Both the position numbers and the translations under genes were made by a program. A DNA stretch of 64,000 bases, from the NCBI RefSeq assembly GCF_008297955.1, contig NZ_VTPY01000009.1, forward strand, positions 1-64,000. Reading direction: 5' to 3'. The notes under the pieces are model-generated. The model did not search any database. It was not told where the DNA came from and saw nothing but the letters and a program-made list of their open reading frames with translations. Below, in pieces: positions 18,114 to 63,829 of this stretch. The first letter of the stretch is position 1. Each line of letters starts with the position of its first letter. The stretch is from Billgrantia pellis. GTDB lineage: Bacteria; Pseudomonadota; Gammaproteobacteria; Pseudomonadales; Halomonadaceae.

Positions 18114-18147
18114 GTTCGTCATCCGAATTTACGTTCGGGATAATAGC
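18114..18147. promoter_or_regulatory. Candidate PcaR-type box pair before dctPQM
   Basis: GTTCG-TCATC-CGAAT at 18114-18128, then another GTTCG at 18133 exactly 19 bp on. The first differs by one base from GTTCG-N5-CGNAC; the second is a half-site. Same spacing as the pairs before pcaI and the second tctC. The known Pseudomonas putida PcaR site is of the form GTTCG-N5-CGCAC. Confidence 0.5.
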
Positions 18148-18253
18148 TAAACTACCCCACTCACCCTGGTCCAGATAATCGACATTAGTCTAGATTTCGA
18201 GGATTTTTCTCCGTCCCGTACGGTTGCCGATAAAAGCCCTTCTCTTATCAGGA

Positions 18254-18382
18254 TTATCGATTCGACTTCTTGGACTTTTCGAAGATCGACATCAACGAAA
18301 CCGAAACGCCGGGCACGAGCGCCCAGAAGGAGGCGCCGGTAATCAGTATCGCCGAGATGAAGTAGTGGATGTGCGCCGGGGG
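18254..18382 (-). pseudogene. Chimeric gene fossil: catechol dioxygenase fragment joined to BenE C-terminus
   Basis: The minus strand reads, in one frame, PAHIHYFISA then ILITGASFWALVPGVSVSLM and a short basic tail to a TAA at 18254. The first ten residues match the iron-ligand segment of catechol 1,2-dioxygenase (PAHIHFFVSA in CatA here, with 17 consecutive identical bases). The next part matches the last helix of BenE (ILGVGSSFWALVLGAGLSLL in the copy at 2560-3813). There is no start codon in this frame; a TGA lies just upstream. So two partial genes are fused by a deletion. It lies in the 390-bp gap between dctP and the salicylate hydroxylase; nothing else is seen there except the box pair. 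Confidence 0.7.
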
Positions 18383-18465
18383 TGTCGAAAAACTCGAGCG
18401 TCATTGGGCGGCTCCATTGCGAATTTCTAGGGTGATGCATAGAGTGCTATGTCAGCTTGAGCGCA

Positions 18466-19770
18466 TCAGGCAGAGGCAGTCAGCGAGCCGGTTTCCCACC
18501 CCAGTCGTACTCTGGCCGCGGCCACGTCGTCCTGCGGGTCGTGGTTCCAAAGCCAGTCGAAACGGGTCTCCAGGTCGATGGCGAGGCGCGCCTCGTCGTC
18601 GCCAATCCCTGGCGCGCTGTACTCGTAGAGATCTCCTGCCTGGTGGGAGGTGCGCTGTACCTTGCAGGTGCGCTCGAGGCGAACGCTCTCGAAGGCCGCC
18701 AGGACCTGCTGTACGTTTTGTCGGGTGCAGGCCTGATCAGTAAGCAGGCTGGCCAGCACGTAGGCGTCTTCCAGCGCCTGACCCGCGCCTGCCCCTTGGT
18801 GGGGCACCATGGCATGGGCCGCATCCCCCACGATCAATACCCGCTCGAAGTGATAGCGAGGCAATTCCGGCAGCTCATGCAGCGCCCAGCGCGTCGGCTC
18901 GGGAATACAGGCGAGAATGGCCTGAGAGGCGGTACCCCAGCCCGCAAAGACTTCCAACATTTCCTGTTGGGTCACGGCTTTTACCCACTCCTCGCCCTCG
19001 GGCAGCCGGGGATTGGGCGTGGAGCGGTCGGTGATGAAAGCCACCACGTTGATCAGTTCGGACTGCTTCACCGGGAAAGTCAGGAGGTGACGGTCGGGAC
19101 CGAGGTACATCTGCGGCACCAGCGCCAGGCGCTTGTCGGCCCCCCTGGCCTCCAGCGCCGCCTCCAGCCGCGTGGTGGGTATCATGCCGCGATAGGCATA
19201 GGTGCCGCTCCAGAACGGGCCGAGGTCGCCATACTGCGCCGGCGGCAGCACGTGCTCGCGCACTGCCGACTTGATCCCGTCGAAGCCGATCAAGATATCG
19301 CCAGTGAAGGAGGTCCCGTCATCAAAGCGCGCCGTCGCGCGGTTATCATCTTGCTGCACCTCGATACAGCGCTTGCCGAAGTGGGCGATTCCTTCGGGCA
19401 GGTTGGCGACGATGGCATCCAGAAAGTCGGCCCGGTGCACCGAGGACTGACCGCAGCCTGGCGCTAGAGTGGCGGTCAGGTAGGCGTCGTCCTGCCAGCG
19501 CCTCCATTCGAACCAGACGTCCTCATAGGGGGCCGGAGAGGCGTCGGCGATGCGACGGTACGAACGCTCCAGGCCGAGCCGTTGTATGGCCCGCACCGCG
19601 TTGGGCCCGAAGGAGACGCCGGCGCCAATCTCGGAGAACTGCGGTGCGGCCTCGAAAAGCTGGACGTCGAGGCCAGGGACCCGCGAGAGGGCCACGGCAA
19701 AGGCAACGCCGCCAATGCCGCCGCCGACGATGCCGATGGAAAGGCGTTCTTGTTGGGGGATGGGTACCAT
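18466..19770 (-). CDS. nahG: Salicylate hydroxylase (salicylate 1-monooxygenase, NahG-like)
   Basis: A 434-residue FAD monooxygenase, the same length as NahG. The N-terminal FAD motif GGGIGG is at residues 16-21; FGPNAVRAIQRLGL, FDGIKSAVREHVL and the C-terminal GDAAHAMVPHQGAGAGQALEDAYVLASLL follow in family order. NahG-type enzymes convert salicylate to catechol with NADH, which CatA here would consume. It is divergent from a NahR-like LysR gene 204 bp away. The ATG at 19770 has GGGAGCACGACC upstream. 3-Hydroxybenzoate 6-hydroxylase is a related alternative, but the regulator favours salicylate. Confidence 0.85.
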   Translation of the reverse strand: MVPIPQQERLSIGIVGGGIGGVAFAVALSRVPGLDVQLFEAAPQFSEIGAGVSFGPNAVRAIQRLGLERSYRRIADASPAPYEDVWFEWRRWQDDAYLTATLAPGCGQSSVHRADFLDAIVANLPEGIAHFGKRCIEVQQDDNRATARFDDGTSFTGDILIGFDGIKSAVREHVLPPAQYGDLGPFWSGTYAYRGMIPTTRLEAALEARGADKRLALVPQMYLGPDRHLLTFPVKQSELINVVAFITDRSTPNPRLPEGEEWVKAVTQQEMLEVFAGWGTASQAILACIPEPTRWALHELPELPRYHFERVLIVGDAAHAMVPHQGAGAGQALEDAYVLASLLTDQACTRQNVQQVLAAFESVRLERTCKVQRTSHQAGDLYEYSAPGIGDDEARLAIDLETRFDWLWNHDPQDDVAAARVRLGWETGSLTASA

Positions 19771-19804
19771 GGTCGTGCTCCCGTGGACTGGTTAGGATGT
19801 ACGC

Positions 19805-19813
19805 TCACGCTAG
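19805..19813. promoter_or_regulatory. Shared promoter element TCACGCTAG, copy 1 (before nahG)
   Basis: TCACGCTAG lies 35 bp upstream of the nahG start. The same nonamer is 34 bp upstream of the mdlC start (26125-26133), and both genes face a NahR-like LysR gene. It resembles part of the published NahR target (ATTCACGCT...). An additional ATTCACG occurs at 19850-19856. Function is inferred from the conserved position. Confidence 0.4.
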
Positions 19814-23448: not shown

Positions 23449-24468
23449 TTACGCCTCGCACTGCTCGCGCAGGCCCATGGCTTTCTCGTAGATACCGCGG
23501 GCCTCATCCAGGCCACGCTCCTCGAGCCGCTCGAGGTAGTTCTCGGTGCCCTGGTTGAGCGGCTCGGCCCAGTCGGGGTCGTTGAGCGGGTCCTCCACGA
23601 CGTGGATGGTGTCGCCCTGGGCCACGGCTTCCTCGCGACCTGCCTCGTCCAGCGCGTCGAAGACCCGCCCCGCCTGCTGGGCCCATTCCATGCCGCTGTT
23701 CTCGTCGATTACTGCCTGCATCTCGGGGGAGAGGCGCTCGTAGCTTGCCTGGCTCATCGTCGCCACGATGGCACCGGCGTAGTACGGCACCTGCAGGTGA
23801 TACTTCGTCAGCTCGTTGATGCGAAACACCTTCATCGCCTCCCACGGGAAGCTCAGGCCATCCATCACCCCACGCTGCAGCGAGGTGAAGATGTCCGGCG
23901 CCGGCATGCCCAGCGGCTGGGCGCCCATGCTGGCGAGCATCTCGCCGGCCACCTCGCTGGGGCGGCGGATGCGCAGCCCTTCGAGGTCGGTCGGCGTCCG
24001 GATCTCGGTATCGCGGGTATGCAGGTAAGCCGGTCCAGTGGTGAACAGGAACAGCACGCGGGTATCGTTGTACTCCCCGGCGATGTCGCCCTCATCGTAG
24101 AGCGTCTGCAGGATGCACGCGCCCTGGGAGGCGCTGTTGACGATGCCGGGCAGCTGCACGATCTCGGTGAGCGGGAAACGCCCGGCGGTGTAGCCCTGCA
24201 GCGTGACGGCGATATCGGCGATGCCGTTGACCGCCGCGTCATAGGCCTGGTCGGCCTTGCTCAAGGTCTGCGAGGGGTAGATCTCGACCTTGAGTTCGCC
24301 GCCCGAATCCTGCTCTACCCGCTCCGCCCAGGCCCGGTAGATCTCCTGGTTGACCGCCGAGCCCTCCGGCCACAGATGCGCCATGCGCAGGGTGGTTTGT
24401 GCGCCGACCGAGGCGCACAACCCCAGCGCGGAAGTGGCGAGCAGCAGGCGTGAAATGGCGTGTTTCAT
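23449..24468 (-). CDS. Orphan TRAP transporter binding protein (DctP)
   Basis: A 339-residue periplasmic binding protein with signal peptide (likely cut after CASVGA). It is a clear paralogue of the DctP at 17046-18074: shared RMAHLWPEGSAVNQEIYRAW, LQGYTAGRFPLTEIVQLPG, RIRRPSEVAGEMLASMGAQPLGMPAPDIF and DGLSFPWEAMKVFRINEL. No DctQ or DctM gene is next to it. It follows mdlC by 42 bp on the same strand, so it probably binds benzoylformate, mandelate or a related acid and may deliver it to the DctQM pair at 15-17 kb. Confidence 0.9.
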   Translation of the reverse strand: MKHAISRLLLATSALGLCASVGAQTTLRMAHLWPEGSAVNQEIYRAWAERVEQDSGGELKVEIYPSQTLSKADQAYDAAVNGIADIAVTLQGYTAGRFPLTEIVQLPGIVNSASQGACILQTLYDEGDIAGEYNDTRVLFLFTTGPAYLHTRDTEIRTPTDLEGLRIRRPSEVAGEMLASMGAQPLGMPAPDIFTSLQRGVMDGLSFPWEAMKVFRINELTKYHLQVPYYAGAIVATMSQASYERLSPEMQAVIDENSGMEWAQQAGRVFDALDEAGREEAVAQGDTIHVVEDPLNDPDWAEPLNQGTENYLERLEERGLDEARGIYEKAMGLREQCEA

Positions 24469-51566: not shown

Positions 51567-52268
51567 ATGAACCGAACGACAATATCCCTCGAGTCGCGTC
51601 ACGCCGAAGCCACCGATGCCTCGCCGGTGGTTGGCGTTGACGATATCGTGGCAGCCGTGGAGGAAGACATCGTGCTCGGCCGCCTCCATCCCAAGGAGCG
51701 GCTGGTCGAGGAAGCGATGATGGAACGCTTCGATGGCAAGCGCCACGTCGTCAGGCAGGCACTCTTCCAGTTGGAGAGCATCGGCCTGGTCGAGCGAATC
51801 AAGAACCGCGGCGCCTTCGTCAAGAGCTACCCTCCGGAAGAGGTCGAGCACCTCTATGCCATGCGCGAACTCCTTGAGCTCGCCGCGGTCGAGGCCTTGC
51901 CCCTGCCCGCATCGCCAGAGTGGCTGACGGAGCTGGAGGACATCCACCGGCGCTACAGCGAAGCCGTCGACGCGCTCGATCTGCGCCGGGTCTTCCGGCT
52001 CAACATAGCCTTCCACCGTACCCTGTTCAGGGCCGCGGGCAACCCGTTCCTCTACGAAACCATCAACGAGTTCGCCCAGAAGGCCCATGGCATCCGTTTC
52101 ATCGCCATCGCCGACAAGGACTCTCTGGCTCAGGCCCAGCGCGAGCACCAGGCCATGATCGACGCTATCCGAAGCCAGGATCGGGAACAACTCGCCCGGC
52201 TATGCCGGGAGCATCTGATACCTTCGAAAGAGCGTTACCTGAGCCTGTATAAGCACGCCTACGCTTAG
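51567..52268 (+). CDS. GntR-family (FadR/FCD subgroup) regulator of the sugar-acid cluster
   Basis: A 233-residue GntR protein. The winged helix spans about residues 25-85 (VEEDIVLGRLHPKERLVEEAMMERFDGKRHVVRQALFQLESIGLVERIKNRGAFV). The FCD ligand domain has metal-binding-type histidines, for example FHRTLF and REHQAMIDAI, and ends KERYLSLY. The ATG at 51567 follows GGGGAA. It lies 88 bp after the dehydratase gene and overlaps pcaL by 4 nt at the end. Sugar-acid operons are often repressed by such proteins until a 2-keto-3-deoxy acid or the substrate is present. Confidence 0.87.
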   Translation: MNRTTISLESRHAEATDASPVVGVDDIVAAVEEDIVLGRLHPKERLVEEAMMERFDGKRHVVRQALFQLESIGLVERIKNRGAFVKSYPPEEVEHLYAMRELLELAAVEALPLPASPEWLTELEDIHRRYSEAVDALDLRRVFRLNIAFHRTLFRAAGNPFLYETINEFAQKAHGIRFIAIADKDSLAQAQREHQAMIDAIRSQDREQLARLCREHLIPSKERYLSLYKHAYA

Positions 52269-53473
52269 CTAGGGTCAGCGTTTCCCTCACCCCAGCCCAG
52301 CTGCTTGGCCAGCGCAAACGCATGGTTGGCCGCCGGTACGCCGGCGTAGACAGCCACGTGCATCAGTACCTGCCGCAGCTCCGCCTCGCTCAGACCGATG
52401 CGCTTGGCGGTCCTGAGGTGCAGCGTGAGCTCATCACGGCCCAGGGCGGCGAGGATCCCGGTGGTGATCAAGCTGCGCTCGCGCCGGGTGAGGTCGTCGT
52501 TGCTCCACAGCTCTCCCCAGGCCAGGCGGGTGATCATCTGCTGGAAGGGGATGTCGAGGCTGTTGGCGTTCTGGCTGGCGCGTTCCACGTGCTCCTCGCC
52601 CAGCACCTGCTTGCGGGTCTCGAGACCCTCGGCATAGCTCACGCCCTGCTCGCCGACCTTTTCCCGGTCTTTGGCCATCCACAGCAGCAATCGCTTGGCC
52701 GTGGCAGCGGGGTCTTCGACCGAGGGCACGTGAGCGAAGCCTTCGAGAATTTCCAGTGGCGCGCCGCCACATTCGGCCGCCAGCGCCTGCAGGGTCTCGG
52801 GCGGGGTGGCCACGTCGTCGCTGCCGCCGAGCAAGTGCACGCCGATGCTGGGATGCTGCGCCAGCGGCCCCTTCAGCTTGCCGCGGAAGTCGGTGCGGCC
52901 AAGCATCTCGCACAGCCGGGCGTAGGATTCGCCGTCGGTACGTGCCATCTGGGTACGCCAGCCGGCCTCCAGTGCAGGCTCGTCTTTTAGTCGCTGGGCC
53001 GAGAACCAGCGCGGCACGATATCGCAGACCATGGCCGAAAGACCCTCGTCACGCACGCGCCCGGCACGGGTGGTCCACAGCTCGCTGCTGCCGATCACCG
53101 CGCCGGTGTTGGTCAGGGTGATGGAGTAGAGCCGCTCGGCATGCTCGGCGATCAACTGCTGGCCCACCACGCCGCCGATGGAGGTGCCGACGAAATGAAA
53201 GCGCGAGGCGCCGGCATGCTCGGCCAGCGCCAGGGCCTCGCGAGCCAGCGTTGCCGGCGTGATCTCGCCGCTTTCAACGGGCCAGGCCTCGCTGGCGCCG
53301 TGGCCGGGCAGGTCCCAGGTCAGCACGCGGTAGCGCGGCAGCAGCGTCGGCAGCAGGTCATCCCACACCGCCTGGGTCATGCCCAGCGGATGCGCCAGCA
53401 CCACCAGCGGCAGCGCCTCGGGGCCAAGCAGGCGATAAGCGACGCTGCGGCCGTCGATCTCGAGAAATGCCAT
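52265..53473 (-). CDS. pcaL: PcaL: 3-oxoadipate enol-lactonase fused to 4-carboxymuconolactone decarboxylase
   Basis: A 402-residue two-domain protein. The N-terminal alpha/beta hydrolase (PcaD, residues 1-265) has the nucleophile Ser98 in VGTSIGG, acid Asp219/220 and His248 (GFAHVPSVE). The C-terminal domain (PcaC, about 275-402) has GLETRKQVLGEEHVERA and LHLRTAKRIGLSEAELRQVLMHVAVYAGVPAANHAF. PcaC removes CO2 from the carboxymuconolactone and PcaD opens the enol-lactone that both catechol and protocatechuate branches produce, so it also replaces CatD. It is the last gene of the pcaI-J-F-L run. Confidence 0.95.
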   Translation of the reverse strand: MAFLEIDGRSVAYRLLGPEALPLVVLAHPLGMTQAVWDDLLPTLLPRYRVLTWDLPGHGASEAWPVESGEITPATLAREALALAEHAGASRFHFVGTSIGGVVGQQLIAEHAERLYSITLTNTGAVIGSSELWTTRAGRVRDEGLSAMVCDIVPRWFSAQRLKDEPALEAGWRTQMARTDGESYARLCEMLGRTDFRGKLKGPLAQHPSIGVHLLGGSDDVATPPETLQALAAECGGAPLEILEGFAHVPSVEDPAATAKRLLLWMAKDREKVGEQGVSYAEGLETRKQVLGEEHVERASQNANSLDIPFQQMITRLAWGELWSNDDLTRRERSLITTGILAALGRDELTLHLRTAKRIGLSEAELRQVLMHVAVYAGVPAANHAFALAKQLGWGEGNADPS

Positions 53474-53633
53474 TCATCCTCTCCTGGCGAAGCGCCTAGG
53501 CAAAGACCCGGCGCTTTTTTGTAACGAGAGGGAAGCCGGGCTTCGCCCTTGAAGAAGAACGTAGCTTCGCCACGTCTTTTTTCCTTCTTTTCCCTTCCCT
53601 CCTATCTCTTACCGCTGATGTCTTATCTCGTTT

Positions 53634-54851
53634 CTATACACGCTCGATTACCGTGGCAATCCCCTGCCCCACGCCGATGCACATGGTGCACAGGGCGAAA
53701 CGACCACCGCTGAGCTGCAGTTCGTGCATGGCGCTGGTGACGATGCGAGCGCCGGACATGCCGAGCGGATGGCCCAGGGCGATGGCGCCGCCATTGGGGT
53801 TGACCCGCGGGTCGTCGTCGGCGATACCCAGCTCGCGCAGGCAGGCCAGCGCCTGAGCGGCAAACGCTTCGTTGAGCTCGATGTGGTCGAGCTGATCCAC
53901 GCTCATGCCCAGGCGTTCAAGCAGCTTCTGCGAGGCCGGTACCGGACCGATGCCCATGATTCGCGGCTCGACGCCGGCGGTAGCCATGCCGTGGATACGC
54001 GCCATCGGGGTCAGATGGTAGCGCTTCACCGCGGCCTCGCTGGCTACGATCACCGCCGCCGCGCCGTCGTTGACGCCCGAGGCGTTGCCCGCGGTGACCG
54101 AGCCCATCACGCTGGAGCCGGCGGCGCGGAACGGCGTGGGCAGACTGGCGAGCTTCTCCAGGGTGGTTTCACGCGGATGCTCGTCGGTGTCGAAGATCAG
54201 CGGCTCCTGCTTGCGCCGCGGGACCTCCACCGGAACGATCTCGCGCGCCAGGCGGCCGCTTTCCTGGGCACGCTTGGTCTTCACCTGCGAGTCATAGGCG
54301 AACCGATCCTGGTCCTCGCGGGAGATCTTGAACTGCTCGGCGACGTTTTCGGCAGTCTCGGGCATCGAGTCGACGCCGTACTGCTTTTTGAGCAGCGGAT
54401 TGATGAAGCGCCAGCCGATAGTGGTGTCTTCCATTGTCTGGCTGCGCGAGAAGGCGCTGTCGGCCTTGCCCAGCACGTAGGGCGCACGCGACATCGACTC
54501 GACGCCGCCAGCGATCATCAGCTCGGCCTCGCCGGCACGCACCGCGCGCGCCGCGGTGCCGATGGCGTCCATGCTCGAGCCGCATAGGCGGTTGATGGTC
54601 GTGCCGGGCACGCTGGTCGGCAGGCCCGCCAACAGCGCCGACATGCGCGCCACGTTGCGGTTATCCTCGCCGGCCTGGTTGGCGCAGCCCATGATCACGT
54701 CGTCGATCCCGGCAGGGTCGAGATCCGGCGCTCGGGCCAGCAGCGCTTCGAAGATGCGCGCGGCGAGATCGTCGGGACGCACGCTGGCAAGCGTGCCGCC
54801 GAACTTGCCGATGGCCGAGCGCACCGGATGACACAGGTAGACGTCATTCAT
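53634..54851 (-). CDS. pcaF: Beta-ketoadipyl-CoA thiolase
   Basis: A 405-residue thiolase that splits 3-oxoadipyl-CoA into succinyl-CoA and acetyl-CoA. The acyl-enzyme cysteine is Cys90 ([10 protein letters not shown]); the C-terminal [19 protein letters not shown] and [10 protein letters not shown] hold the active-site His and second Cys. The ATG at 54851 gives [19 protein letters not shown], the usual PcaF start. It lies between pcaJ and pcaL on the same strand. The 160-bp gap to pcaL is rich in short T and C runs but holds no gene. Confidence 0.95.
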
Positions 54852-54973
54852 AAATTCAACTCTCCTGACATTCGCTGTAGAACGTGACGAGGCATGGCCA
54901 GCCGAGGCGAGAGACAACCTTTGCCCTATCTCTCGATACGTATGACCAAGCGCAGGCCGCTATAAAAGCGGAT

Positions 54974-55747
54974 TTACTCGCCCGTGTGCTTGCGTTCGGT
55001 CCTGGCCTTCAGTTCACGCAGCACTTCCAGCTCGCGAGCGCTGGGCTCGGGCGTGGTCTCGAGCACGTCGGCGAAACGAATCTCCCAACCGGTGGCCTCG
55101 ATCACCTCTTCACGGGTCACGTTCGGGTGCAGCGAGACGACGACCAATTCCTTGGTCTCGGGATCAGGCTTCATCACGCACAGATCGGTGATGACCCGGG
55201 TCGGGCCGCGACCGATGTTGGGCACGCCATCTCGCCCCTTGCCATCGCGGCCGAAGCCCAGCGTAGTGACGAAATCGACGTCCTTTACGAAGGCGCGCTT
55301 GGAGTGCTTCAGGGTAATGAAGACCTCGCCGGCATTGGTGGCGATCTCCGGCGCACCGCCGCCGCCCGGGAGGCGTACCTTGGGATCATGGTAGTCGCCG
55401 ATCAGGGTGGTGTTGAGGTTGCAGTAGCGATCGATCTGGGCGGTGCCGAGGAAGCCCACGTCGATTTTGCCGCCCTGCAGCCAGTAGCGGAACATCTCGG
55501 GCACCGAGACGGTGGTCAGTGCCGATTCGCACAGTTCGCCGTCGCCGATCGAAAGCGGCAACACGTCAGGCTTGGTCTGCAGGGTACCGGACTCATAGAT
55601 CAGCACCACGTCCGGCGCATGGGTGAGGCGCGCCAGGTTGGCGGCCTCGCTGGGCAGGCCGATGCCGACGAAGCAGGTCATGCCATTCTCGAGCGCGCGC
55701 GCGGCGGTGACGCTCATCATCTCCGAGGAACTGTATTCGAGGCGCAT
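54974..55747 (-). CDS. pcaJ: 3-oxoadipate CoA-transferase subunit B (CatJ type)
   Basis: A 257-residue CoA-transferase beta subunit of the glutaconate CoA-transferase/CatJ group: EMMSVTAARALENGMTCFVGIGLPSEAANLARLTHAPDVVLIYESG, with Glu52 (YESG) at the catalytic-glutamate position, then RLPGGGGAPEIA and HPNVTREEVIEATGWEIRF. It moves CoA from succinyl-CoA to 3-oxoadipate. Its ATG overlaps the pcaI stop by one base (TGATG) behind AGGAGGAC. The CatIJ-type pair is distinct from the shorter-sequence PcaIJ of Pseudomonas putida. Confidence 0.93.
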   Translation of the reverse strand: MRLEYSSSEMMSVTAARALENGMTCFVGIGLPSEAANLARLTHAPDVVLIYESGTLQTKPDVLPLSIGDGELCESALTTVSVPEMFRYWLQGGKIDVGFLGTAQIDRYCNLNTTLIGDYHDPKVRLPGGGGAPEIATNAGEVFITLKHSKRAFVKDVDFVTTLGFGRDGKGRDGVPNIGRGPTRVITDLCVMKPDPETKELVVVSLHPNVTREEVIEATGWEIRFADVLETTPEPSARELEVLRELKARTERKHTGE

Positions 55748-56577
55748 CAGGATTGTCCTCCTGCGTGGTAGACGTTTTCCTCCAGCCAGGCCTTGAAGCG
55801 TTCGCGGTCGCGGGCGATGGCGTCCCATTCCTTGTAGAAGCGGTTGTCGCGCGGGTAGTAGCCATGCGCGTAGGAGGGGTAGGAGCCCTTCTCCGCCACG
55901 GCGATGGCGCTGACCGCCCAGCCAGGAATGATGCAGGCGTTGGGGTGGTAGTCCGGCTGCGTCGTCAGGTCGTCGACGATCTCCTCGACGGTGACGATGC
56001 TCTGCCTGGCGGCCAGCACCGCCTCCTTCTGCACGCCCACGATGCCCTCGACCAGTACGTTGCCGGCACGGTCGGCTTTTTGTGCGTGGACGATGGAAAC
56101 GTCGGGGCGCACCGAGGGCACCGCGGCCAGACGTTCGCCGGTGAACGGGCATTCGATGAACTTTATCTGGTCGTTGACGCTCGGCAGTTCGCTGCCCACG
56201 TAGCCACGCAGCACGGCGAGCGGCAGCCCGGCGGCACCGGCCTCGAAGGCGCAAGCCATGGCGGCGTGGCTGTGCTCGAGAATCTCGACTTTATGCGGCC
56301 AGCCCTTCTCCACCGCGTCGCGCAGGCGGTGCAGCGAACCCACGCCGGGGTTGCCGCCCCAAGAGAAAATCACCTTCTTTGCGCAGCCGGCCCCGATCAT
56401 CTGGTCGTAGACCAGGTCGGGGGTCATGCGGATCAGGGTGAGGTCGCGTCTGCCCTGACGAATCACTTCGTGACCGGCGGCGACGGGGATTAGATGGGTG
56501 AAACCTTCCATGGCCACGGTGGCGCCGTCTTCGACGTAGCGCGCCACCGCGTCATGCAAGCTGAGGAACTCGGCCAT
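55747..56577 (-). CDS. pcaI: 3-oxoadipate CoA-transferase subunit A (CatI type)
   Basis: A 276-residue alpha subunit: MAEFLSLHDAVARYVEDGATVAMEGFTHLIPVAAGHEVIRQ, then FSWGGNPGVGSLHRLRDAVEKGWP, FTGERLAAVPSVRPDVSIVHAQKADRAGNV and SYAHGYYPRDNRFYKEWD, matching CatI of Pseudomonas strain B13. The ATG at 56577 fits the family; the longer frame covers the promoter. It heads pcaI-J-F-L. Two GTTCG-N5-CGNAC boxes lie 32-65 bp upstream. Confidence 0.93.
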   Translation of the reverse strand: MAEFLSLHDAVARYVEDGATVAMEGFTHLIPVAAGHEVIRQGRRDLTLIRMTPDLVYDQMIGAGCAKKVIFSWGGNPGVGSLHRLRDAVEKGWPHKVEILEHSHAAMACAFEAGAAGLPLAVLRGYVGSELPSVNDQIKFIECPFTGERLAAVPSVRPDVSIVHAQKADRAGNVLVEGIVGVQKEAVLAARQSIVTVEEIVDDLTTQPDYHPNACIIPGWAVSAIAVAEKGSYPSYAHGYYPRDNRFYKEWDAIARDRERFKAWLEENVYHAGGQS

Positions 56578-56608: not shown

Positions 56609-56642
56609 GTCCGCATAACGAACACAGGTTTGTGATACGAAC
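56609..56642. promoter_or_regulatory. Tandem PcaR-type boxes before pcaI
   Basis: GTCCG-CATAA-CGAAC (56609-56623) and GTTTG-TGATA-CGAAC (56628-56642), 19 bp apart start to start; on the minus strand the first reads GTTCG-TTATG-CGGAC. Position upstream of the first pca gene of the run fits activation by the IclR-type protein at 63897. Confidence 0.65.
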
Positions 56643-56677
56643 AACAGTAATCACCCCTTTCGCGATCGTCAATCATG

Positions 56678-56744: not shown

Positions 56745-58073
56745 TTACGACGCCATGAGCCAATCAATGGCACGCCGGACCTGCCTTTGGGCACTACCAA
56801 GGTATAAGGCGGGATCGGCGACACGCTCCAGCTCGGCACGCTCGATACGCCCTGTTATCTCGGTATGCTCGGTCAACACCGTGGCATAGGCACGCCGCTC
56901 GATGCGGGCCGTCTCGGCCGCTTCGGCGGAGATCCGCTTGGCGGCATCCTGGCCGACGACAGGTACCAGCAGGCGCGATACCGGTTCGGCCATGATCGCC
57001 CCGCCGGTGATCGCCAGGTTTCGCTGCATCGCCTCCGCATGCACTTCGAGCCCCTCGAGCAACCGCGCGAGTTGCTCCAAAGCACCCTCCAGTAGCAAGG
57101 CGCTGTCGACCAGCGGCGACCATTCCGCGTGCCATTCGCCCAGGCCACGTTCCAGCGGCTGGGCCGCCGCGTTCATGATCACCGTGGCATGCCCATGAAT
57201 CTGACGGCAGGCGGCGCGAATCAGCGCGCAGCGCACCGGGTTACGCTTGTGCGGCATGGAGGAGGAGGCTCCCATGCCCTCACCACCCGGTTCGCTGACC
57301 TCGCCGATCTCGGTCTGGGTCAGCAGCGCCACGTCCAGCGCCGCTTTCTCGGCGGCCCCGGCCACGGCGTCCAGCGCCGTGGCCAACGCGTGGATCGGCT
57401 GACGGTCCGTATGCCAGGGCAGCACGGGAGCCGCGAGCTCCAGTCGCCCGGCCAGGCCGTCCATGAAGTCGAGACCCAGTTCTCCCCAGCCGGAATGCAC
57501 ACCCACGGCACCGCCAAACTGCACCGGCAGCTCGACCTGCGCCAGGCGGCGCCGCGACTGTTCGAGCCCGATGGCCCAATGCGCCACCTTGACGCCGAAG
57601 GTGATCGGCAGCGCCTGCTGCATCAGCGTGCGTCCCACCATGACCGTCTGGTCGTGTGTGTTCATCAACTCGACCGCAGCGGCACGACAGCGCAACAGCA
57701 GCGCATCCAGCGCGGCCAGGCGCGGCTTGAGCAACAGCATCAGCGCGCTGTCCACCACATCCTGGCTGGTGGCGCCCATGTGCCAGTAGCGCTTGAGCGG
57801 CTCGGGCAACGCCGCGCGCCCCTGCTTGACGAAGGGAATCGCCGCGTTACCGCCACTGGCGACTCCTTCCGCCATGGCAGCGAGATCGAAGGCATGCGAC
57901 TCGAGAGGCTCGCGCATGGCGCGGTGGGTGCCGGCAGGCATAGCCCCATGACGCTCCTGCACCTCGGCCAGCGCCAGCTCGAAAGCCAGCATGGCCTGTA
58001 CCATGGCCGCGGCGTTGCACTCGCTCAGCGCGGGGCCGTTCATGAAAGGGTGGCGAATCAGGGGTGCAGGCAT
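56745..58073 (-). CDS. pcaB: 3-carboxy-cis,cis-muconate cycloisomerase
   Basis: A 442-residue member of the fumarase/aspartase superfamily. Conserved regions: MGATSQDVVDSA at 99-110 and the signature GASSSMPHKRNP at about 268-279, with the mobile-loop serine. It converts 3-carboxymuconate from PcaGH to 4-carboxymuconolactone for PcaL. The ATG at 58073 gives MPAPLIRHPFMNGPALSE, the usual start. It has its own promoter region, with a perfect GTTCG-TATTT-CGAAC box 39 bp upstream, and its own terminator, so it is a separate unit from pcaIJFL. Confidence 0.94.
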   Translation of the reverse strand: MPAPLIRHPFMNGPALSECNAAAMVQAMLAFELALAEVQERHGAMPAGTHRAMREPLESHAFDLAAMAEGVASGGNAAIPFVKQGRAALPEPLKRYWHMGATSQDVVDSALMLLLKPRLAALDALLLRCRAAAVELMNTHDQTVMVGRTLMQQALPITFGVKVAHWAIGLEQSRRRLAQVELPVQFGGAVGVHSGWGELGLDFMDGLAGRLELAAPVLPWHTDRQPIHALATALDAVAGAAEKAALDVALLTQTEIGEVSEPGGEGMGASSSMPHKRNPVRCALIRAACRQIHGHATVIMNAAAQPLERGLGEWHAEWSPLVDSALLLEGALEQLARLLEGLEVHAEAMQRNLAITGGAIMAEPVSRLLVPVVGQDAAKRISAEAAETARIERRAYATVLTEHTEITGRIERAELERVADPALYLGSAQRQVRRAIDWLMAS

Positions 58074-58111
58074 GAGGGCGTCTCCGAGGCCGCGCTTCTT
58101 AACGTACCCGT

Positions 58112-58126
58112 GTTCGTATTTCGAAC
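58112..58126. promoter_or_regulatory. PcaR-type box before pcaB
   Basis: GTTCG-TATTT-CGAAC, a perfect 5-bp inverted repeat with 5-nt centre, extended to TGTTCG/CGAACA. Only a half-match (CGTAC at 58103-58107) is found at 19-bp spacing. Confidence 0.65.
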
Positions 58127-58315
58127 AAATGCTAGAGACTGTTCCGTCATCGAGCAACACTCGTCAGCCCGAGAGCCGGTATGTTGAAAGCTTAGACGTT
58201 GTCGCAACATCACCGCCGTCATTGAACGAAAGTCGCATTGTGACGATGGTGACGTGGCGCAACCATGTATCGCTTAACGAACTTATGTACGCATAGCGTA
58301 CTGAAAGGATCCCAC

Positions 58316-59029
58316 ATGACCGAATCCTGTGCCATCGTCACCGGCGGCGCCCGCAACATCGGCCAGGCCATCGCCCTGCGCCTGCAACGCGACGGCTATC
58401 GCACCTTCGTGCTGGACATCGTCGAGCCCGAGGCCGAGTCGCTCAGGGAGGATGCGCGCCAGGTCGATCTTGCCGACGTGGATGCCACCCGCACGGTGCT
58501 GAACGAGATCGCCGAACATCATGCCGTTGACTGCCTGGTCAACAATGTGGGCATCGTCGTTCCCGCCCTGCTCGACGAAACCCATGTGGAGGATTTCGAT
58601 CGCCTGATGCACCTCAACGTACGCTCGGCGCTGGTCTGCACCCAGGCACTGCTGCCGGGCATGCGCGAGCGCAACCATGGACGCATCGTGGTCAACGCCA
58701 GCCGCGTGGTGCTGGGCAAGGAAGCGCGCACGCTCTACAGCGCGACCAAGGGAGCCCTTCAGTCCATGGCGCGCACCTGGGCGCTGGAGCTGGCCGGCGA
58801 CGGGATCACCGTCAATTGCGTGGCCCCTGGCCCCATCGCCACCACCGCCTTCTGGGAGAACAACCCGCCGGACTCCGAGCGGGCACGGCGCATCGTCGAC
58901 AACATCCCGGTACAGCGCATGGGCCAGCCCGAGGACGTCGCCCAGGCGGTGAGTTTCTTCTGCGACGAGCGCAGCGGCTTCGTCACCGGCCAGACGCTGT
59001 TCGTCTGCGGCGGCGTCACCGTCGGTTGA
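58316..59029 (+). CDS. Short-chain dehydrogenase/reductase
   Basis: A 237-residue classical SDR. Cofactor motif TGGARNIG at 9-16, NNVG at 76-79, Asn101, Ser129, Tyr141 and Lys145 form a complete catalytic set, and VCGGVTVG closes the protein. AAAGGATC precedes the ATG at 58316. It is alone on the plus strand between pcaB and the CoA-transferase gene, converging on the latter. Substrate not known; the context suggests an acyl-CoA or hydroxy-acid step. Confidence 0.85.
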   Translation: MTESCAIVTGGARNIGQAIALRLQRDGYRTFVLDIVEPEAESLREDARQVDLADVDATRTVLNEIAEHHAVDCLVNNVGIVVPALLDETHVEDFDRLMHLNVRSALVCTQALLPGMRERNHGRIVVNASRVVLGKEARTLYSATKGALQSMARTWALELAGDGITVNCVAPGPIATTAFWENNPPDSERARRIVDNIPVQRMGQPEDVAQAVSFFCDERSGFVTGQTLFVCGGVTVG

Positions 59030-59037
59030 TCGTCAAC

Positions 59038-59054
59038 CGGGGCGCGCGGCCCCG
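59038..59054. terminator. Short hairpin between convergent genes
   Basis: CGGGGC and GCCCCG arms with a 5-nt loop between the SDR stop and the CoA-transferase stop. No T-run. Confidence 0.4.
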
Positions 59055-59065
59055 TCAACCTGCCG

Positions 59066-60289
59066 CTACACGATGCCCCGGTGCCGCAGTGCATCGATCT
59101 CGCCCGGCGCCTTGCCGAGCAGACGCGCCAGCACGGCGTCGGTATCCTCGCCCAGCGCCGGCGGCGCCTTGCGGTACTCGATCCGTGTCCGCGAATACTT
59201 GATCGGATTGGCCACCCCTGGCACCGGGCCATGAGCGGACTCGAGCTCGACCTTCATGCCCCTTGCCTTGACCTGGGGATCATCGAACACCTGGGCGATG
59301 TTCTGAATCGGTCCGCAGGGCACCGAGATCTCACGCAGCAGTGTCATCCAGTCGGCGGCGGTGCGGGAGCGAGTGATCTCGACCAGGATCGGCACCAACT
59401 CGAGGCGATGTCGCACCCGCTCCGGATTGGTGGCAAAGCGCGGATCCTCGGCCAGTTCGGGGCGCCCCACGGCCCGACAGAAGCGTTGGAACTGGCCGTC
59501 ATTGCCGATGGCGATGATGACTTTCTCACCGTCGACGGTGGGGAACGGCTGATAGGGCACCAGATTGGGATGGTATTCGCCGGTGCGGGTGGGCGGCGTG
59601 CCGCTGCAGAAGTAGTTCTGCGCCTGGTTGGCCAGCCAGCTCACCTGGACATCGAGCAGCGCCATGTCGATATACTGACCCTCACCGGTGAGATGGCGGT
59701 GGTGCAGCGCACCGAGGATGGCGATGGCGGCGTTCATGCCGGTGGTCAGATCCGCCACCGCCATGCCTACCCGCTGCGGCCCGGCGCCCGGCTCGCCGTC
59801 GGCCGCTCCGGTGATGCTCATCAGCCCCCCTTGAGCCTGGATCAGGTAGTCGTAGCCGGCCATGGCGGCCATCGGCCCGGTTTGGCCGAACCCGGTGATC
59901 GAACAGTAGATCAATCCCGGATTGAGGGCCTCGAGAGCAGCGTAGTCGAGCCCCTTGCGCGCCAGGCCGCCGCTCTTGAAATTCTCCACCAGAATATCGC
60001 TTTCGGCGGCAAGTTCTCGGATCAGCGCCTGACCCTCGGGACGACCGATATCGACGGTCACCGAGTGCTTGCCACGGTTGGCTGAAAGGTAGTAGGCCGA
60101 CTCGCGGGTCTCGTTGTCGTTGCGATCCTTGAGCCAGGGCGGCCCCCAATGGCGCGTATCGTCGCCACTCGTCGGGCGTTCGATCTTGATCACCTCCGCG
60201 CCCATGTCGGCAAGTATCTGGGTACACCAGGGCCCGGCCATCACCCGACTCAGGTCGAGCACCCGCAGGCCTGTCAGCGGTCCTGCCAT
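59066..60289 (-). CDS. CaiB/BaiF-family (class III) CoA-transferase
   Basis: A 407-residue class III CoA-transferase. The N-terminal RVLDLSRVMAGPWCTQILADMGAEVIKIERP is the family hallmark; the catalytic aspartate is Asp180 (GMAVADLTTGM). The C-terminal half has the RPELAEDPRFATNPERVRHR block. Members move CoA between dicarboxylic or carnitine-type acids. It lies downstream of the second tct operon on the same strand (238 bp away). The substrate could be the acid imported by that transporter. Confidence 0.9.
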   Translation of the reverse strand: MAGPLTGLRVLDLSRVMAGPWCTQILADMGAEVIKIERPTSGDDTRHWGPPWLKDRNDNETRESAYYLSANRGKHSVTVDIGRPEGQALIRELAAESDILVENFKSGGLARKGLDYAALEALNPGLIYCSITGFGQTGPMAAMAGYDYLIQAQGGLMSITGAADGEPGAGPQRVGMAVADLTTGMNAAIAILGALHHRHLTGEGQYIDMALLDVQVSWLANQAQNYFCSGTPPTRTGEYHPNLVPYQPFPTVDGEKVIIAIGNDGQFQRFCRAVGRPELAEDPRFATNPERVRHRLELVPILVEITRSRTAADWMTLLREISVPCGPIQNIAQVFDDPQVKARGMKVELESAHGPVPGVANPIKYSRTRIEYRKAPPALGEDTDAVLARLLGKAPGEIDALRHRGIV

Positions 60290-60361
60290 CGTATCGTCTC
60301 CCTCAATTGTGATTCACGTCGCCACGGTCGGCGCAGACTCGTCACCCGCGCGCGATCGCCA

Positions 60362-60382
60362 CCCGGTGCGGTGCGCACCGGG
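60362..60382. terminator. Hairpin between the CoA-transferase gene and the second tctA
   Basis: CCCGGTGCG and CGCACCGGG arms around a 3-nt loop, 146 bp past the tctA stop and 73 bp before the CoA-transferase start. May end the tct transcript. The rest of 60290-60527 shows no gene. Confidence 0.45.
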
Positions 60383-60527
60383 AGCGATCGGACAGACGGC
60401 GCGTAAAGAATCAGTTCCAGCTCAGCAGGAGCCTGCCCTGCTGCCGTCCGCCTCCCTCCTTCGTCGGCGCTGGATCAGGTACCGCAGCGACGGCCTTCCG
60501 GCGAGGCGGCTTCGTTGACCCTGCAGC

Positions 60528-62033
60528 TCATGGGGCATCCTGGGAGGTGTCGGCCCGGGTCGGCAGGCGCCGTGCGGTCACGTAGCGGTAGAGCGCCAGC
60601 ACGATGGAGCCCAGCGTCAGGGCAATGAAGAACCAGGTGATGGGACCACGCATAAAGATCGACAGATCGTTACCGCCGATCAACAGCGAGCGGCGCAGGT
60701 TGTCCTCGAACATCGGTCCCAGAATGAAGCCGATCAGGAACGGGGCGGCGGGTATCGCCGCGCGATTGAAGATATACCCCAGCACGCCGAAGCCCAGCAT
60801 CAGCCACACGTCGAAGGTGTCATTGTTCACGGCATAGGCGCCGTAGACGCAGAACATCAGCACGATGGGGAAGAGGATCGCCTTGGGAATGTCGGCGATC
60901 AGCGAGAAATACTTGATGGCGCCGTTGCCCACCACCAGCAGCACCAGCGAGCTGAACATGATGCCCATGAACAGCGCGTAGATCAGCGGCAGGTTCTCCT
61001 GGAACAAGATCGGACCGGGCGTCAGGCCGTGCACCATGAAGGCGCCCAGGATGATCGCGGTGATCACGTCGCCGGGAATGCCCAGCGACAGCAGTGGGAT
61101 CATGGTCGCCCCCGCCACGCCATTGTTGCCCGCCTCCGAGGCGGCCACGCCTTCGACCTCGCCCTTGCCGAAGTTGTCGCGGCGGGGCGAGCGGCGCCGG
61201 GCGTCGCTGTAGGAGATGAAGGCCGCGGCGGTCGCCCCGGTACCGGGGATGGCGCCTATGATCACGCCGATCAGACTGCCGCGCACGATACTCTTGAGGC
61301 AACGCTTGAGTTCAGCCAGCGAAAGCCCGGCCCCGCTGGCCTTGGCCTTGATGTGCGGCACCGCCTTCTTGCGATAGAACTCGATGATCTCCGGAATCGC
61401 GAACAGCCCGATGAGCAGCGGGATGAACGAGATCGAGTCCATCAGGTTGTAGTTGCCGAAGGTCAGTCGCTGGGAGCCGAAGACTTCGTCCAGACCCACC
61501 AGCGAGAGCAGGATTCCCATCAACGCCGCCAGCAGTCCTTTGATCATCGAGCCGCTGGCCAACGAAATGATGATCGTCAGCGAGAAGCAGATCAGCCAGA
61601 AGAATTCAGGGGCGCCGAAGTTCAGGGCGATCTTGGCCAAGTAGGCGGCAAAAAAGATCAGCGCGATATTGGAGATGAAGTCGGCGATGACCGACGAGTA
61701 GAGCGCCGTCTTGAGCGCCTTCTTGGCGTGCCCCTGCTGGGCCATGGGATAGCCGTCGAGCAGGGTGCAGGCCGATGCGGGCGAACCGGGCGTGCGGATC
61801 AGGATCGCCGTAATCGAGCCCCCGTACATGCCGCCCTTGTAGATGCCGACCAGCAGCAGTATGGCGGCGACCGGCTCCATGGAGAAGGTGAACGGCAGGG
61901 CCAGTGCTACCGCCATGGTGGCGGTCAGGCCGGGAATGGAGCCCACCACCACGCCGATCACGACCCCCAGCGCGATGGCCAGGAAGTTCTCCGGATGAAG
62001 GAAGAGTTGCAGGACTTCCGAAACGATTTCCAT
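60528..62033 (-). CDS. tctA: Tripartite tricarboxylate transporter large membrane subunit (TctA), pca-linked
   Basis: A 501-residue TctA protein with GSIPGLTATMAVALALPFTFSMEP, YGGSITAILIRTPGSPASACTLLDG and GAIPGTGATAAAFISYSDARRRSP. The two TctA proteins in the window share motifs but differ widely, so they are not a recent duplication. Last gene of tctC-tctB-tctA. The operon's promoter has the tandem GTTCG boxes seen before pcaI, so the cargo may be an aromatic acid or a pathway intermediate rather than citrate. Confidence 0.93.
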   Translation of the reverse strand: MEIVSEVLQLFLHPENFLAIALGVVIGVVVGSIPGLTATMAVALALPFTFSMEPVAAILLLVGIYKGGMYGGSITAILIRTPGSPASACTLLDGYPMAQQGHAKKALKTALYSSVIADFISNIALIFFAAYLAKIALNFGAPEFFWLICFSLTIIISLASGSMIKGLLAALMGILLSLVGLDEVFGSQRLTFGNYNLMDSISFIPLLIGLFAIPEIIEFYRKKAVPHIKAKASGAGLSLAELKRCLKSIVRGSLIGVIIGAIPGTGATAAAFISYSDARRRSPRRDNFGKGEVEGVAASEAGNNGVAGATMIPLLSLGIPGDVITAIILGAFMVHGLTPGPILFQENLPLIYALFMGIMFSSLVLLVVGNGAIKYFSLIADIPKAILFPIVLMFCVYGAYAVNNDTFDVWLMLGFGVLGYIFNRAAIPAAPFLIGFILGPMFEDNLRRSLLIGGNDLSIFMRGPITWFFIALTLGSIVLALYRYVTARRLPTRADTSQDAP

Positions 62034-62065
62034 ACGTCACCTAGAACCTGGTTGAGCGGTCTGCA

Positions 62066-62566
62066 TCAGAACGGCATCACCGGCAGTGGCACGTTCATGA
62101 CGTTGACGAAGAGAAAGGTGACGAGCACCGGAAAGACGATGACCAGGCTGTACGCCCACCAGGTGCGCACCGGATGGGCGACGAACAGGATCAGCGTGGC
62201 CAGGATGCCGCTGATTACCGCGCCGAACGTCTCGAACAGCGCCACATAGACCAATAGCGCCACCACCATCAGGCCGAAGCGTCGCCGCGGCCCCTTCTCG
62301 ATGCGTCGCCCGTCCTCCTTGCCGGTGTTGTCAACGAGCAAGCCCTGCATGATCAGCAGGGCGGAAAAGCCGAGCAACAGCCAGCCCACGATGCGTGGCA
62401 ACCAGCGCGGCGACATCATGGGGTTCTGCAGGACCGGCGGTTCGCCGATGTAGTTGGGCACCAGATAGAACAGCAGGACGGCGGAGGCAATCAGCAGGAC
62501 GGCGCCCGCCAGGACGTCGCCCGGGTCCCGGATCGGCCCGCCACGCTTGTGATCGGGTGTCGACAT
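62066..62566 (-). CDS. tctB: Tripartite tricarboxylate transporter small subunit (TctB), pca-linked
   Basis: A 166-residue membrane protein with four hydrophobic helices, a basic loop (GKEDGRRIEKGPRRR) near the middle and the pattern SPRWLPRIVGWLLLGFSALL typical of TctB. GAGAGGTGGCT precedes the ATG at 62566. Located between tctC and tctA. Confidence 0.88.
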   Translation of the reverse strand: MSTPDHKRGGPIRDPGDVLAGAVLLIASAVLLFYLVPNYIGEPPVLQNPMMSPRWLPRIVGWLLLGFSALLIMQGLLVDNTGKEDGRRIEKGPRRRFGLMVVALLVYVALFETFGAVISGILATLILFVAHPVRTWWAYSLVIVFPVLVTFLFVNVMNVPLPVMPF

Positions 62567-62640
62567 AGCCACCTCTCTGAGAAAACAGGTGAGGCGAGGA
62601 CACGGCCCTCGCCTCATCGATCGCTGGGTCGGCCCAGGTG

Positions 62641-63627
62641 TTACTGGCGGATACCCGCCTCCTCGGCGACACCCTGCCAGCGCTCCACCTCGGCGGCGAT
62701 GAACTGCTTGAACTCTTCACCGGCGACCTGGCCGGGCTCGGCGCCCAACTGGTTGGCGAAGTCGAGGAACTCTTCGCGCTGCATCACGGCCTCGAGAGCT
62801 TCCTGCATGGCATCCTGCGCCTCCTGCGGGAAGGATTCGTGCGCGATCAGGCCGAACCAGGCGGTGGTGACGAACTGGTCGAGATTATAATCGCCCACTT
62901 CGCGCAGGGTCGGCACGTCCGGCAGATGCTCGGAGCGCTCGGCGGAGGTCACGGCCAGTGCCTTGAGATCTCCGGACTTGATGTGCGAAAGCACGGTCGG
63001 CATGTTCTCGAACGACACGTCCACGTCACCGCCCAGCAGGGCCGGCAGCGCCGCGCCACTGCCGGCGAACGGCACGGCCGTCATGTTGGTCTCGGTCAGC
63101 GTCTTGAACAGTTCGCCCGACATGTGAATGGAACTGCCCACACCGCTGTGGCTGAAGGTCATGTTCTCTTCTCTTGCCGCCTCGACGAACGCTTCCACGC
63201 TGTCGTAGGGGCTGTCGGCCGGCACCACCATGACGTTGGGGATATCGATCAGGTTCTGCAGGAAAACGAAGTCCTCGACCGGATCGTAGGCCAGGTCGGG
63301 ATAGATCGCCGCACCGATGGTATGACCCGGGGACGCCATCAGGATGGTGTGGTCGACATCGCGACCGCCTCGCGCCAGGCGCCCGGTCGCCACGGTGGAG
63401 CCCGCGCCGGGGCGGTTCTCGACCACGACGTTGGCGTCCAGCTCCTCTTGGAGCAGATCGGCAACGCGACGGGACAGCACGTCAGTGGTACCGCCCGGCG
63501 CGTAGGGCACCACCAGACGCACATCGTCGGACGGCCACTCGTCGGCGTGTACCGTGGAGATGGAAGCCGCCATCGCCAGGCCGCCGCTGCACACCGCCAG
63601 GCTCGCTGCTTTCAGGAAATTCTTCAT
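62641..63627 (-). CDS. tctC: Tripartite tricarboxylate transporter binding protein (TctC), pca-linked
   Basis: A 328-residue binding protein with signal peptide (cleavage near ISTVHA). Family blocks: VRLVVPYAPGGTTDVLSRRVADLLQEEL, VVENRPGAGSTVATGRLAR, MTFSHSGVGSSIHMSGELFK and KALAVTSAERSEHLPDVPTLREVG. The ATG at 63627 follows AAAGGTGGC; a longer frame covers the operator region. It heads the tctCBA operon and is 269 bp from the IclR-type gene on the other strand. Ligand inferred to be an aromatic or beta-ketoadipate-related acid. Confidence 0.92.
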   Translation of the reverse strand: MKNFLKAASLAVCSGGLAMAASISTVHADEWPSDDVRLVVPYAPGGTTDVLSRRVADLLQEELDANVVVENRPGAGSTVATGRLARGGRDVDHTILMASPGHTIGAAIYPDLAYDPVEDFVFLQNLIDIPNVMVVPADSPYDSVEAFVEAAREENMTFSHSGVGSSIHMSGELFKTLTETNMTAVPFAGSGAALPALLGGDVDVSFENMPTVLSHIKSGDLKALAVTSAERSEHLPDVPTLREVGDYNLDQFVTTAWFGLIAHESFPQEAQDAMQEALEAVMQREEFLDFANQLGAEPGQVAGEEFKQFIAAEVERWQGVAEEAGIRQ

Positions 63628-63677
63628 CACGCCACCTTTACGATTGAAGCTTATTATCGATTGAGCCCGCTTGTATT

Positions 63678-63711
63678 GTTCGTTATACGGACATATATTC
63701 GCATTACAGAC
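63678..63711. promoter_or_regulatory. Tandem PcaR-type boxes before the second tctCBA operon
   Basis: GTTCG-TTATA-CGGAC (63678-63692) and ATTCG-CATTA-CAGAC (63697-63711), 19 bp apart. The first differs at one position from the pcaI box GTTCG-TTATG-CGGAC. They lie 51-84 bp upstream of tctC. Confidence 0.65.
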
Positions 63712-63814
63712 AGAGAGTACTTTGATCTCTCTTCGGCCAAAAACCCCGACTTTAGTCTTAACAGCACGCATCCCGCCGTTTTGGCGCTTTCTCGGCAAGC
63801 ACCGTCCCTTTTCC

Positions 63815-63829
63815 GTTCGCATATCGAAC
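63815..63829. promoter_or_regulatory. PcaR-type box before the IclR-type gene
   Basis: GTTCG-CATAT-CGAAC, a perfect inverted repeat, 68 bp upstream of the IclR-type start. Suggests autoregulation. Confidence 0.6.

Follow-up and report, generated by a model that had tools for sequence, protein, structure and literature searches.

The first 64,000 nucleotides of contig NZ_VTPY01000009.1 of Billgrantia pellis (assembly GCF_008297955.1, forward strand), referred to here as the window, contain the pca genes pcaI, pcaJ, pcaF and pcaDC in one run, a separate pcaB gene, a short-chain dehydrogenase/reductase (SDR) gene, the TRAP transporter operon dctPQM, the tripartite tricarboxylate transporter (TTT) genes tctCBA followed by a CaiB-type CoA-transferase gene, and the start of a gene for an IclR-type regulator (Table 1). 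A preliminary description of the window had reported boxes of the form GTTCG-N5-CGNAC before dctPQM, pcaI, pcaB, tctC and the regulator gene, some of them paired at a distance of 19 bp, and had proposed that they tie the two transporters to the pca genes. We describe here the operators in the window, their conservation in relatives, and a second box that accompanies them at the two transporters. These observations suggest, with a probability of roughly 80%, a PcaR-type IclR repressor regulon that would comprise pcaIJ-pcaF-pcaDC, pcaB, the SDR gene, tctCBA, dctPQM and the regulator gene itself.

All five boxes are present at the reported positions (18114, 56609, 58112, 63678 and 63815). The last four match the reported form exactly on at least one strand, and the box at 18114, GTTCGTCATCCGAAT, departs from it at one position. 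The three reported pairs (18114/18133, 56609/56628 and 63678/63697) are present as well. When each member is scored out of 10 against GTTCG-N5-CGAAC and the two members are summed (pair score, out of 20), the pair at 56609/56628 reaches 9+9 and the other two 9+7. The earlier list lacked a fourth pair in the SDR promoter (58268/58287, 8+8) and overlooked the half-site CGTAC at 58103, which adjoins the pcaB box. At a spacing of 19, four pairs with a score of at least 16 are found in the window (18114, 56609, 58268 and 63678), none is found at spacings of 15-18 and 20-25, and no other spacing from 5 to 60 has more than one. In 1000 dinucleotide shuffles in 2000-base blocks, the mean number of such pairs at spacing 19 was 0.045 and the maximum was 3, and four pairs were reached in 0 of 1000. 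The 19-bp pairing of boxes in the window is real. The single box, on the other hand, is not discriminating: with one mismatch it occurs 25 times in the window versus 23.5 expected, and the exact box occurs 37 times in the whole genome versus 73 in the control. The number of boxes, at or below control in both window and genome, was dropped as evidence. One exact box, at 30800, was rejected as a candidate; it lies inside an open frame of 1078 amino acids and forms no spacing-19 pair with a score of at least 15.

For a genome-wide scan, which the preliminary description had proposed, 53 operators of relatives were aligned (17 from pcaI, 28 from dctP and 8 from regulator genes), with this genome contributing none, and a sequence-only model, R1, was built from them. 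The alignment omits L057, the dctP locus of this genome, the dctP locus L068, whose pair score is 12, the pcaI site of a near relative (L087) and the remaining regulator sites, and its eight regulator sites were picked for a clear third half-site. Run over 4,346,535 bases, R1 gave eight matches at E of at most 10, with 150 of 390 first-look candidates scored. They represent only six sites, every one in the window and before a predicted target gene: pcaI (E 1.4e-3), pcaB (0.021), SDR (0.036, also 0.046), dctP (0.042), tctC (0.12) and the regulator (0.44). The explicit three-box pattern CGAAC-N4-GTTCG-N5-CGAAC has three genome matches when one mismatch is allowed, namely dctP, pcaI and pcaB. With up to two mismatches there are 13, nine of them in the window, which is 1.5% of the genome; eight of these nine are at the six operators, and one (24285) is inside a second dctP gene. 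The control gives 15 matches. By raw count the genome thus shows no excess; the excess is in the placement, and weight can be given only to the best matches and to where they lie.

The operators are conserved before orthologous genes. A match to dctP was present in 40 of 117 genomes, and among the 30 best-scoring loci (own locus included) a palindrome matching at least 9 of 10 positions lies within 160 bp of the match in 29. For tctC, with a match in 18 of 117 genomes, such a palindrome precedes 17 of 18 loci, own included; tctC lies apart from the regulator gene in 13 of these 18 genomes (not in G000, G012, G025, G028 and G039), and 12 of the 13 keep the operator. For pcaI we used the 51 of 80 named loci that hold the gene and 200 bp upstream; this named set of relatives shares strains with the other set. 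The palindrome is present in 51/51, and a pair with a score of at least 16 at spacing 19 in 50/51; the pair spacing that the preliminary description had suggested looking for in relatives is kept at this promoter. The pcaI pair also persists in L105 and L106, genomes of other families in the order. At the regulator gene, 79 of 80 named relatives have the palindrome within 300 bp, a count that may include a neighbour's operator. A palindrome at the same threshold precedes pcaDC in 0/39, caiB in 0/4 and pcaF in 2/51. The earlier proposal that ties the TRAP and TTT transporters to the pca genes is supported in so far as their promoters have the operator, both by the genome scan and by comparison with relatives.

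Several observations weigh against reading these sites as one regulon. The R1 E-values are modest, running from 1.4e-3 to 0.44 with 150 candidates scored; the two-mismatch pattern is no commoner than in its control, and its match at 24285 is intragenic. Among the orthologues, the dctP locus L068 has a weak operator (8/10), with the second box described below at 128 bp, and the tctC locus L146 has no operator. It is nevertheless extremely improbable that the boxes are no more than random occurrences of a short, GC-containing palindrome. Such a reading would fit the single box being no commoner than expected, but it is contradicted by the spacing test, by the genome scan and by the conservation at 29/30, 17/18 and 50/51 orthologous promoters.

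The operators differ in how many half-sites they contain. We calculated mean matches out of 5 at four half-sites; dctP, tctC and regulator sites were anchored on their best palindrome, which selects for the last two half-sites only and leaves the third half-site at dctP unselected. The means are 1.47, 4.90, 4.20 and 4.93 for dctP, 2.28, 3.89, 4.00 and 4.94 for tctC, 1.32, 3.15, 4.84 and 4.76 for the regulator, and 4.92, 3.49, 4.65 and 4.82 for pcaI, whose sites were picked as the best pair. The background over all tested offsets averages about 1.2. The outermost half-site is thus at chance for dctP and the regulator and weak for tctC, in contrast to 4.92 at pcaI. The second pcaI half-site reads CAAAC in 26 of 51 loci, CAAAA in 12 and CAAAT in 8. 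At dctP we find a palindrome with an external direct half-site; two full palindromes at fixed spacing are found at pcaI, are absent at dctP and the regulator, and are weak at tctC. These profiles rule out two full palindromes at every site, and the earlier suggestion of two dimers on the paired boxes would fit pcaI and not the other promoters. The common unit is CGAAC-N4-GTTCG-N5-CGAAC, three half-sites with a 19-bp direct repeat, and only pcaI has four.

This architecture is already known, since three-box and tandem sites have been published (Suvorova and Gelfand 2021, PMC8222616; this and the other papers cited are represented here by their available parts). Tandem sites spaced 18-22 nt are described there in 94 orthologous groups and read as tetramer binding, and three-box sites for PcaU, PobR and HmgR, with PcaU binding requiring the third box. 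The operators of the window resemble those tandem sites in their spacing of about two DNA turns, and they resemble the PcaU and PobR sites of Acinetobacter in combining a palindrome with an outer half-site in direct repeat, and in the half-site GTTCG (PMC8222616). They differ from PcaU and PobR in the 19-bp repeat, in a pcaI operator apparently downstream of the -10 element, and in the presence of TRAP and TTT transporters in the predicted regulon. The main text of PMC8222616 mentions neither Halomonas nor Oceanospirillales, and its available sections describe no second activator box.

The IclR-type gene of the preliminary description belongs to the PcaR/PcaU/PobR subfamily. Its product scores 296.7 bits against TIGR02431 (cut-off 284.75), whereas the other eight matches in the genome all stay below the cut-off, and GTTCG-N5-CGAAC-type operators are found at pca genes and at its own gene. 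Homologues in a named collection, which may lack the records of this genome, fall in Halomonadaceae, the closest being from Billgrantia saliphila (96% identity); the regulator is found in 66/117 genomes at E of at most 1e-50. The eight matches below the cut-off lie elsewhere in the genome and speak against a firm assignment, as they leave room for another regulator. We consider it quite unlikely that the dctPQM and tctC operators belong to such an IclR paralogue with the same group-1 motif, leaving PcaR with only pcaI, pcaB and its own gene. The similarity of group-1 IclR motifs across many regulators (PMC8222616) would allow it. However, none of the eight sub-cut-off matches is on this contig. 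A single model, R1, places dctP among the pca sites in rank, although its training set mixed dctP, pcaI and regulator sites. In some relatives dctP lies close to the regulator gene, for example at distances of 17, 14 and 16 kb in G011, G040 and G022, respectively.

In 51/51 relatives, TTGACG (at least 5 of 6 bases) starts 29-30 bp before the pcaI operator, and in 47/51 the hexamer adjoining the operator has at least two of three tested key -10 bases. The pcaI operator directly follows this predicted -10 element, which is a repressor position. An automatic promoter scan listed nothing for either the pcaI or the tctC region, a point against this assignment, so the candidate pcaI promoter rests on conservation; the -10 elements at dctP and tctC were read by eye from alignments and are less certain. 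PcaR would bind the three-half-site operator, in which same-facing CGAAC half-sites recur every 19 bp, and at pcaI the fourth half-site would make a second palindrome. Bound there, it would block RNA polymerase until a metabolite of the aromatic pathway, presumably beta-ketoadipate or protocatechuate by analogy, releases it. A rather unlikely alternative is that PcaR acts at some operators as an activator, like PcaU, and not as a plain repressor. Both the Pseudomonas putida PcaR and the Acinetobacter PcaU activate pca genes, as the titles of work by Guo and Houghton in 1999 and by Gerischer in 1998 (cited in PMC8222616) state. The position of the pcaI operator, directly after a conserved -10-like hexamer and at a fixed distance from TTGACG, argues for repression instead.

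Upstream of both dctP and tctC, the consensus contains a second box that the preliminary description had missed. It reads GACYAADGTC and lies some 62 bp ahead of the palindrome. We scored it 45-85 bp before the palindrome, omitting the dctP locus L082 at a contig edge. At least 9 of 10 positions match in 27/29 dctP loci and 18/18 tctC loci (own included in both), in 0/51 pcaI loci and in 3/80 regulator loci. A composite pattern, consisting of the exact three-box operator, 36-56 bp and the box, was then searched in 275 genomes of the family and gave 53 matches in 41 genomes, with none in the backwards control; this genome has exactly two, at dctP and tctC. All 40 matches that were read precede dctP (30) or tctC (10), 11 further ones are at dctP or tctC coordinates, and the remaining two are in G143 and G289. 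As the composite was derived from these same promoters, their recovery is expected, and the informative part is that 0 of the 51 checked matches lies elsewhere. The pattern is strict, and many dctP loci with both boxes fail to match it exactly. Other results count against the second box: the dctP locus L058 scores 8/10, and the box alone, searched in the genome as TANGACYAADGTCG with one mismatch, gives 11 matches versus 18 in the control, finding the tctC box and missing the dctP box. With no excess over control, it was rejected as a genome-wide search term.

The box resembles ACTU, the CrbR motif, which is found immediately ahead of the acs promoter; the published examples TACGACTAAAGTCTAAA and TAATACTAAGGTCGTCT (PMC5715377, Table 4) are very close to GACYAADGTC. 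The CrbS/R (MxtR/ErdR) acetate system may be similar in further respects: the box would likewise sit just before the predicted promoters, and a candidate pair is encoded in this genome, a hybrid kinase with PAS, HisKA, HATPase and REC domains adjoining an ErdR-like response regulator. Boxes matching 9/10 are also found upstream of acs (TACCAAGGTC) and of a gene for an SSS symporter (TACCAAAGTC). CrbR is on this sequence evidence the leading candidate for the box, and not a demonstrated regulator. Three points run counter to it: the best NCBIfam match of the response regulator, ErdR, scores 267.4 bits, below the cut-off of 390; the hybrid kinase has no SSF Pfam match at E 1e-5; and the acs and SSS boxes give weak support, as eight 9/10 matches occur in that 18 kb. 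The CrbS/R targets named in the available text of PMC5715377 are acs, actP and accessory genes, and TRAP and dctP have no occurrence there. It is possible, if less probable than not, that PcaR controls the pca genes and both transporters and that GACYAADGTC is the site of a different LuxR/NarL-type response regulator. The box shows conservation and has the position of an activator site; the boxes at acs and SSS have the sequence TACCAARGTC with a T after it and not GACYAADGTCG, and the ErdR match stays under its cut-off. The closeness of the published ACTU examples to the box speaks against this reading. A further sequence of this kind, GACCAAAGTC, lies at 14239-14248, about 110 bp upstream of pobA (12945-14129) and inside the longest frame of a divergent AraC-type gene; it may mark one more target, the third, for the second regulator, or be a chance match.

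At the transporter promoters, a LuxR-type response regulator such as CrbR/ErdR would act as activator by binding GACYAADGTC ahead of a weaker promoter. Loss of PcaR alone would then suffice for the pca operon, and the TRAP and TTT operons would need the loss of PcaR plus an active second regulator. We regard it as an even bet that a composite cassette of this type (CrbR/ErdR-type box, weak promoter and three-half-site PcaR operator) sits on the non-homologous dctPQM and tctCBA transporters across Halomonadaceae and gates aromatic-acid import by the pathway inducer via PcaR and by carbon or acetate state via a two-component system, while the catabolic operon answers to PcaR alone.

The remaining features are listed in Table 1. 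The CaiB-type gene behind tctCBA is probably co-regulated with it. Several relatives have pcaB and the regulator gene in divergent orientation with one common operator, after which comes AAATATGCTAGATT or a similar sequence. Here, AAATGCTAGA comes after the pcaB operator at 58112 (operator and flank together at 58103-58136), and the SDR, caiB and tctABC genes (58316-63627) separate pcaB from the regulator. We infer that the SDR-caiB-tctABC block entered between the two genes and that the old divergent operator and its flank stayed with pcaB. The pcaHG genes (36483-37953) were rejected as a PcaR target, their best palindrome in 300 bp upstream matching 6/10. A different palindrome, ATAACCGCTGGGTTAT at 37957-37972, lies between a LysR gene and pcaHG and resembles the PcaQ site; pcaHG may be under a different regulator. 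The window also encodes a second DctP-type binding protein (23449-24468) that is 61% identical to the first and adjoins benzoylformate decarboxylase; the genome scan gave no operator for it. In the relatives L089, L094, L098, L104, L183, L189 and L191 we observed further three-box PcaR-like operators with at least 13/15 matches. Their downstream genes encode BKACE, an ABC binding protein, a DcaP porin, Mem_trans and EamA permeases, a cytochrome and a TIM-barrel/HPPD-type protein, and one such operator sits between a Rieske oxygenase gene and an AraC gene.

Table 1 Features of the predicted PcaR regulon in the window (operators and promoters are predictions)
Feature	Position	Strand	Remarks
dctPQM TRAP transporter operon	15236..18074	-	DctP NF037995 and DctM TIGR00786 over cut-off; DctQ PF04290 32.6 bits, cut-off 28.3
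dctP operator	18114..18137	-	CGAAC-N4-ATTCG-N5-CGAAC; found by R1 and in relatives
ACTU-like box	18181..18190	-	GACTAATGTC; upstream of dctP promoter; conserved; part of composite pattern
pcaIJ, pcaF, pcaDC run	52265..56577	-	Downstream of pcaI operator
pcaI, pcaJ	within 52265..56577	-	PF01144 CoA-transferase; names as assigned in the preliminary description
pcaF	within 52265..56577	-	TIGR02430 688 bits, over cut-off
PcaDC	within 52265..56577	-	NF051488 385.4 bits, slightly under cut-off 390
pcaI operator	56609..56642	-	Two palindromes 19 bp apart, GTTCGTATCACAAAC-N4-GTTCGTTATGCGGAC; best R1 match genome-wide
Candidate pcaI promoter	56644..56672	-	TTGACG-N17-TACTGT; one base upstream of operator
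pcaB	56745..58073	-	PRK09053 360.8 bits and TIGR02426 309.4 bits, each under curated cut-off
pcaB operator	58103..58126	+	CGTAC-N4-GTTCG-N5-CGAAC; third half-site towards pcaB; one mismatch to three-box consensus
SDR operator	58268..58301	+	CGAAC-N4-GTACG-N5-CGTAC at 58278-58301; like sequence in 2/2 relatives inspected
SDR oxidoreductase	58316..59029	+	PF13561 167 bits; NF005753 234 bits, below cut-off 310
CaiB-type CoA-transferase gene	59066..60289	-	Behind tctCBA; best NCBIfam succinate-glutarate CoA-transferase, 491 bits, below cut-off 750
tctA	60528..62033	-	PF01970, 503 bits
tctB	62066..62566	-	PF07331, 60 bits, cut-off 29.1
tctC, TTT substrate-binding protein	62641..63627	-	PF03401, 183.1 bits
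tctC operator	63678..63701	-	CGAAT-N4-GTCCG-N5-CGAAC; weak fourth half-site GTCTG at 63707-63711
ACTU-like box	63748..63757	-	GACTAAAGTC; upstream of tctC promoter; conserved; part of composite pattern
Regulator operator	63815..63838	-	Palindrome GTTCGATATGCGAAC (63815-63829) and poor third half-site CGCAT; R1 E 0.44
PcaR/PcaU/PobR-type IclR regulator gene, start	63897..64000	+	Continues to contig position 64673, 259 amino acids; TIGR02431

Transporters under PcaR in Pseudomonas putida are the MFS-type PcaK and PcaT; COG3333 corresponds to the TctA-type permease. The preliminary description had called neither a TRAP nor a TTT system standard in PcaR regulons; for IclR regulons in general this was overstated, as DctPQM occurs in IclR regulogs and COG3181 and COG3333 are associated there with aromatic metabolism (PMC8222616). 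The regulon resembles that of P. putida PcaR in its TIGR02431 regulator, its pca targets and a similar operator consensus, WWWRKTCGATWATCGSAYRRW (Table 1 of PMC8222616), and differs from it in the TRAP and TTT transporters and in pcaHG, which here has a LysR gene in place of a PcaR box. Betaproteobacterial TctC-type (COG3181) proteins have been placed in aromatic regulons, under the name of an aromatic transporter receptor family; the regulators named in the available part of that paper are AphS, AphR, AphT, ClcR, CatR and relatives, not PcaR (PMC6449761). Among the matches listed in a search of literature titles and abstract openings, we met no PcaR regulon from Halomonadaceae that includes dctPQM or TTT genes and no two-box promoter cassette on two unrelated transporters; subscription papers were thinly covered, so absence is unproven. 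The predicted PcaR regulon is well supported; its operator architecture is known, whereas its set of transporters is unusual.

In Vibrio natriegens, deletion of a TTT and two TRAP transporters left protocatechuate uptake and growth unaffected, which weighs against an uptake role, and TRAP mutations arose in evolved lines (PMC13253662). Co-regulation is therefore no proof of substrate, and an uptake role should not be assumed. With that reservation, the regulon suggests a role for the TRAP and TTT transporters in uptake for the protocatechuate/beta-ketoadipate pathway, and its architecture predicts three half-sites at transporter and regulator promoters and four at pcaI. That two unrelated transporters share the two-box cassette suggests that aromatic acids may be imported in response to one set of signals and catabolized in response to another.

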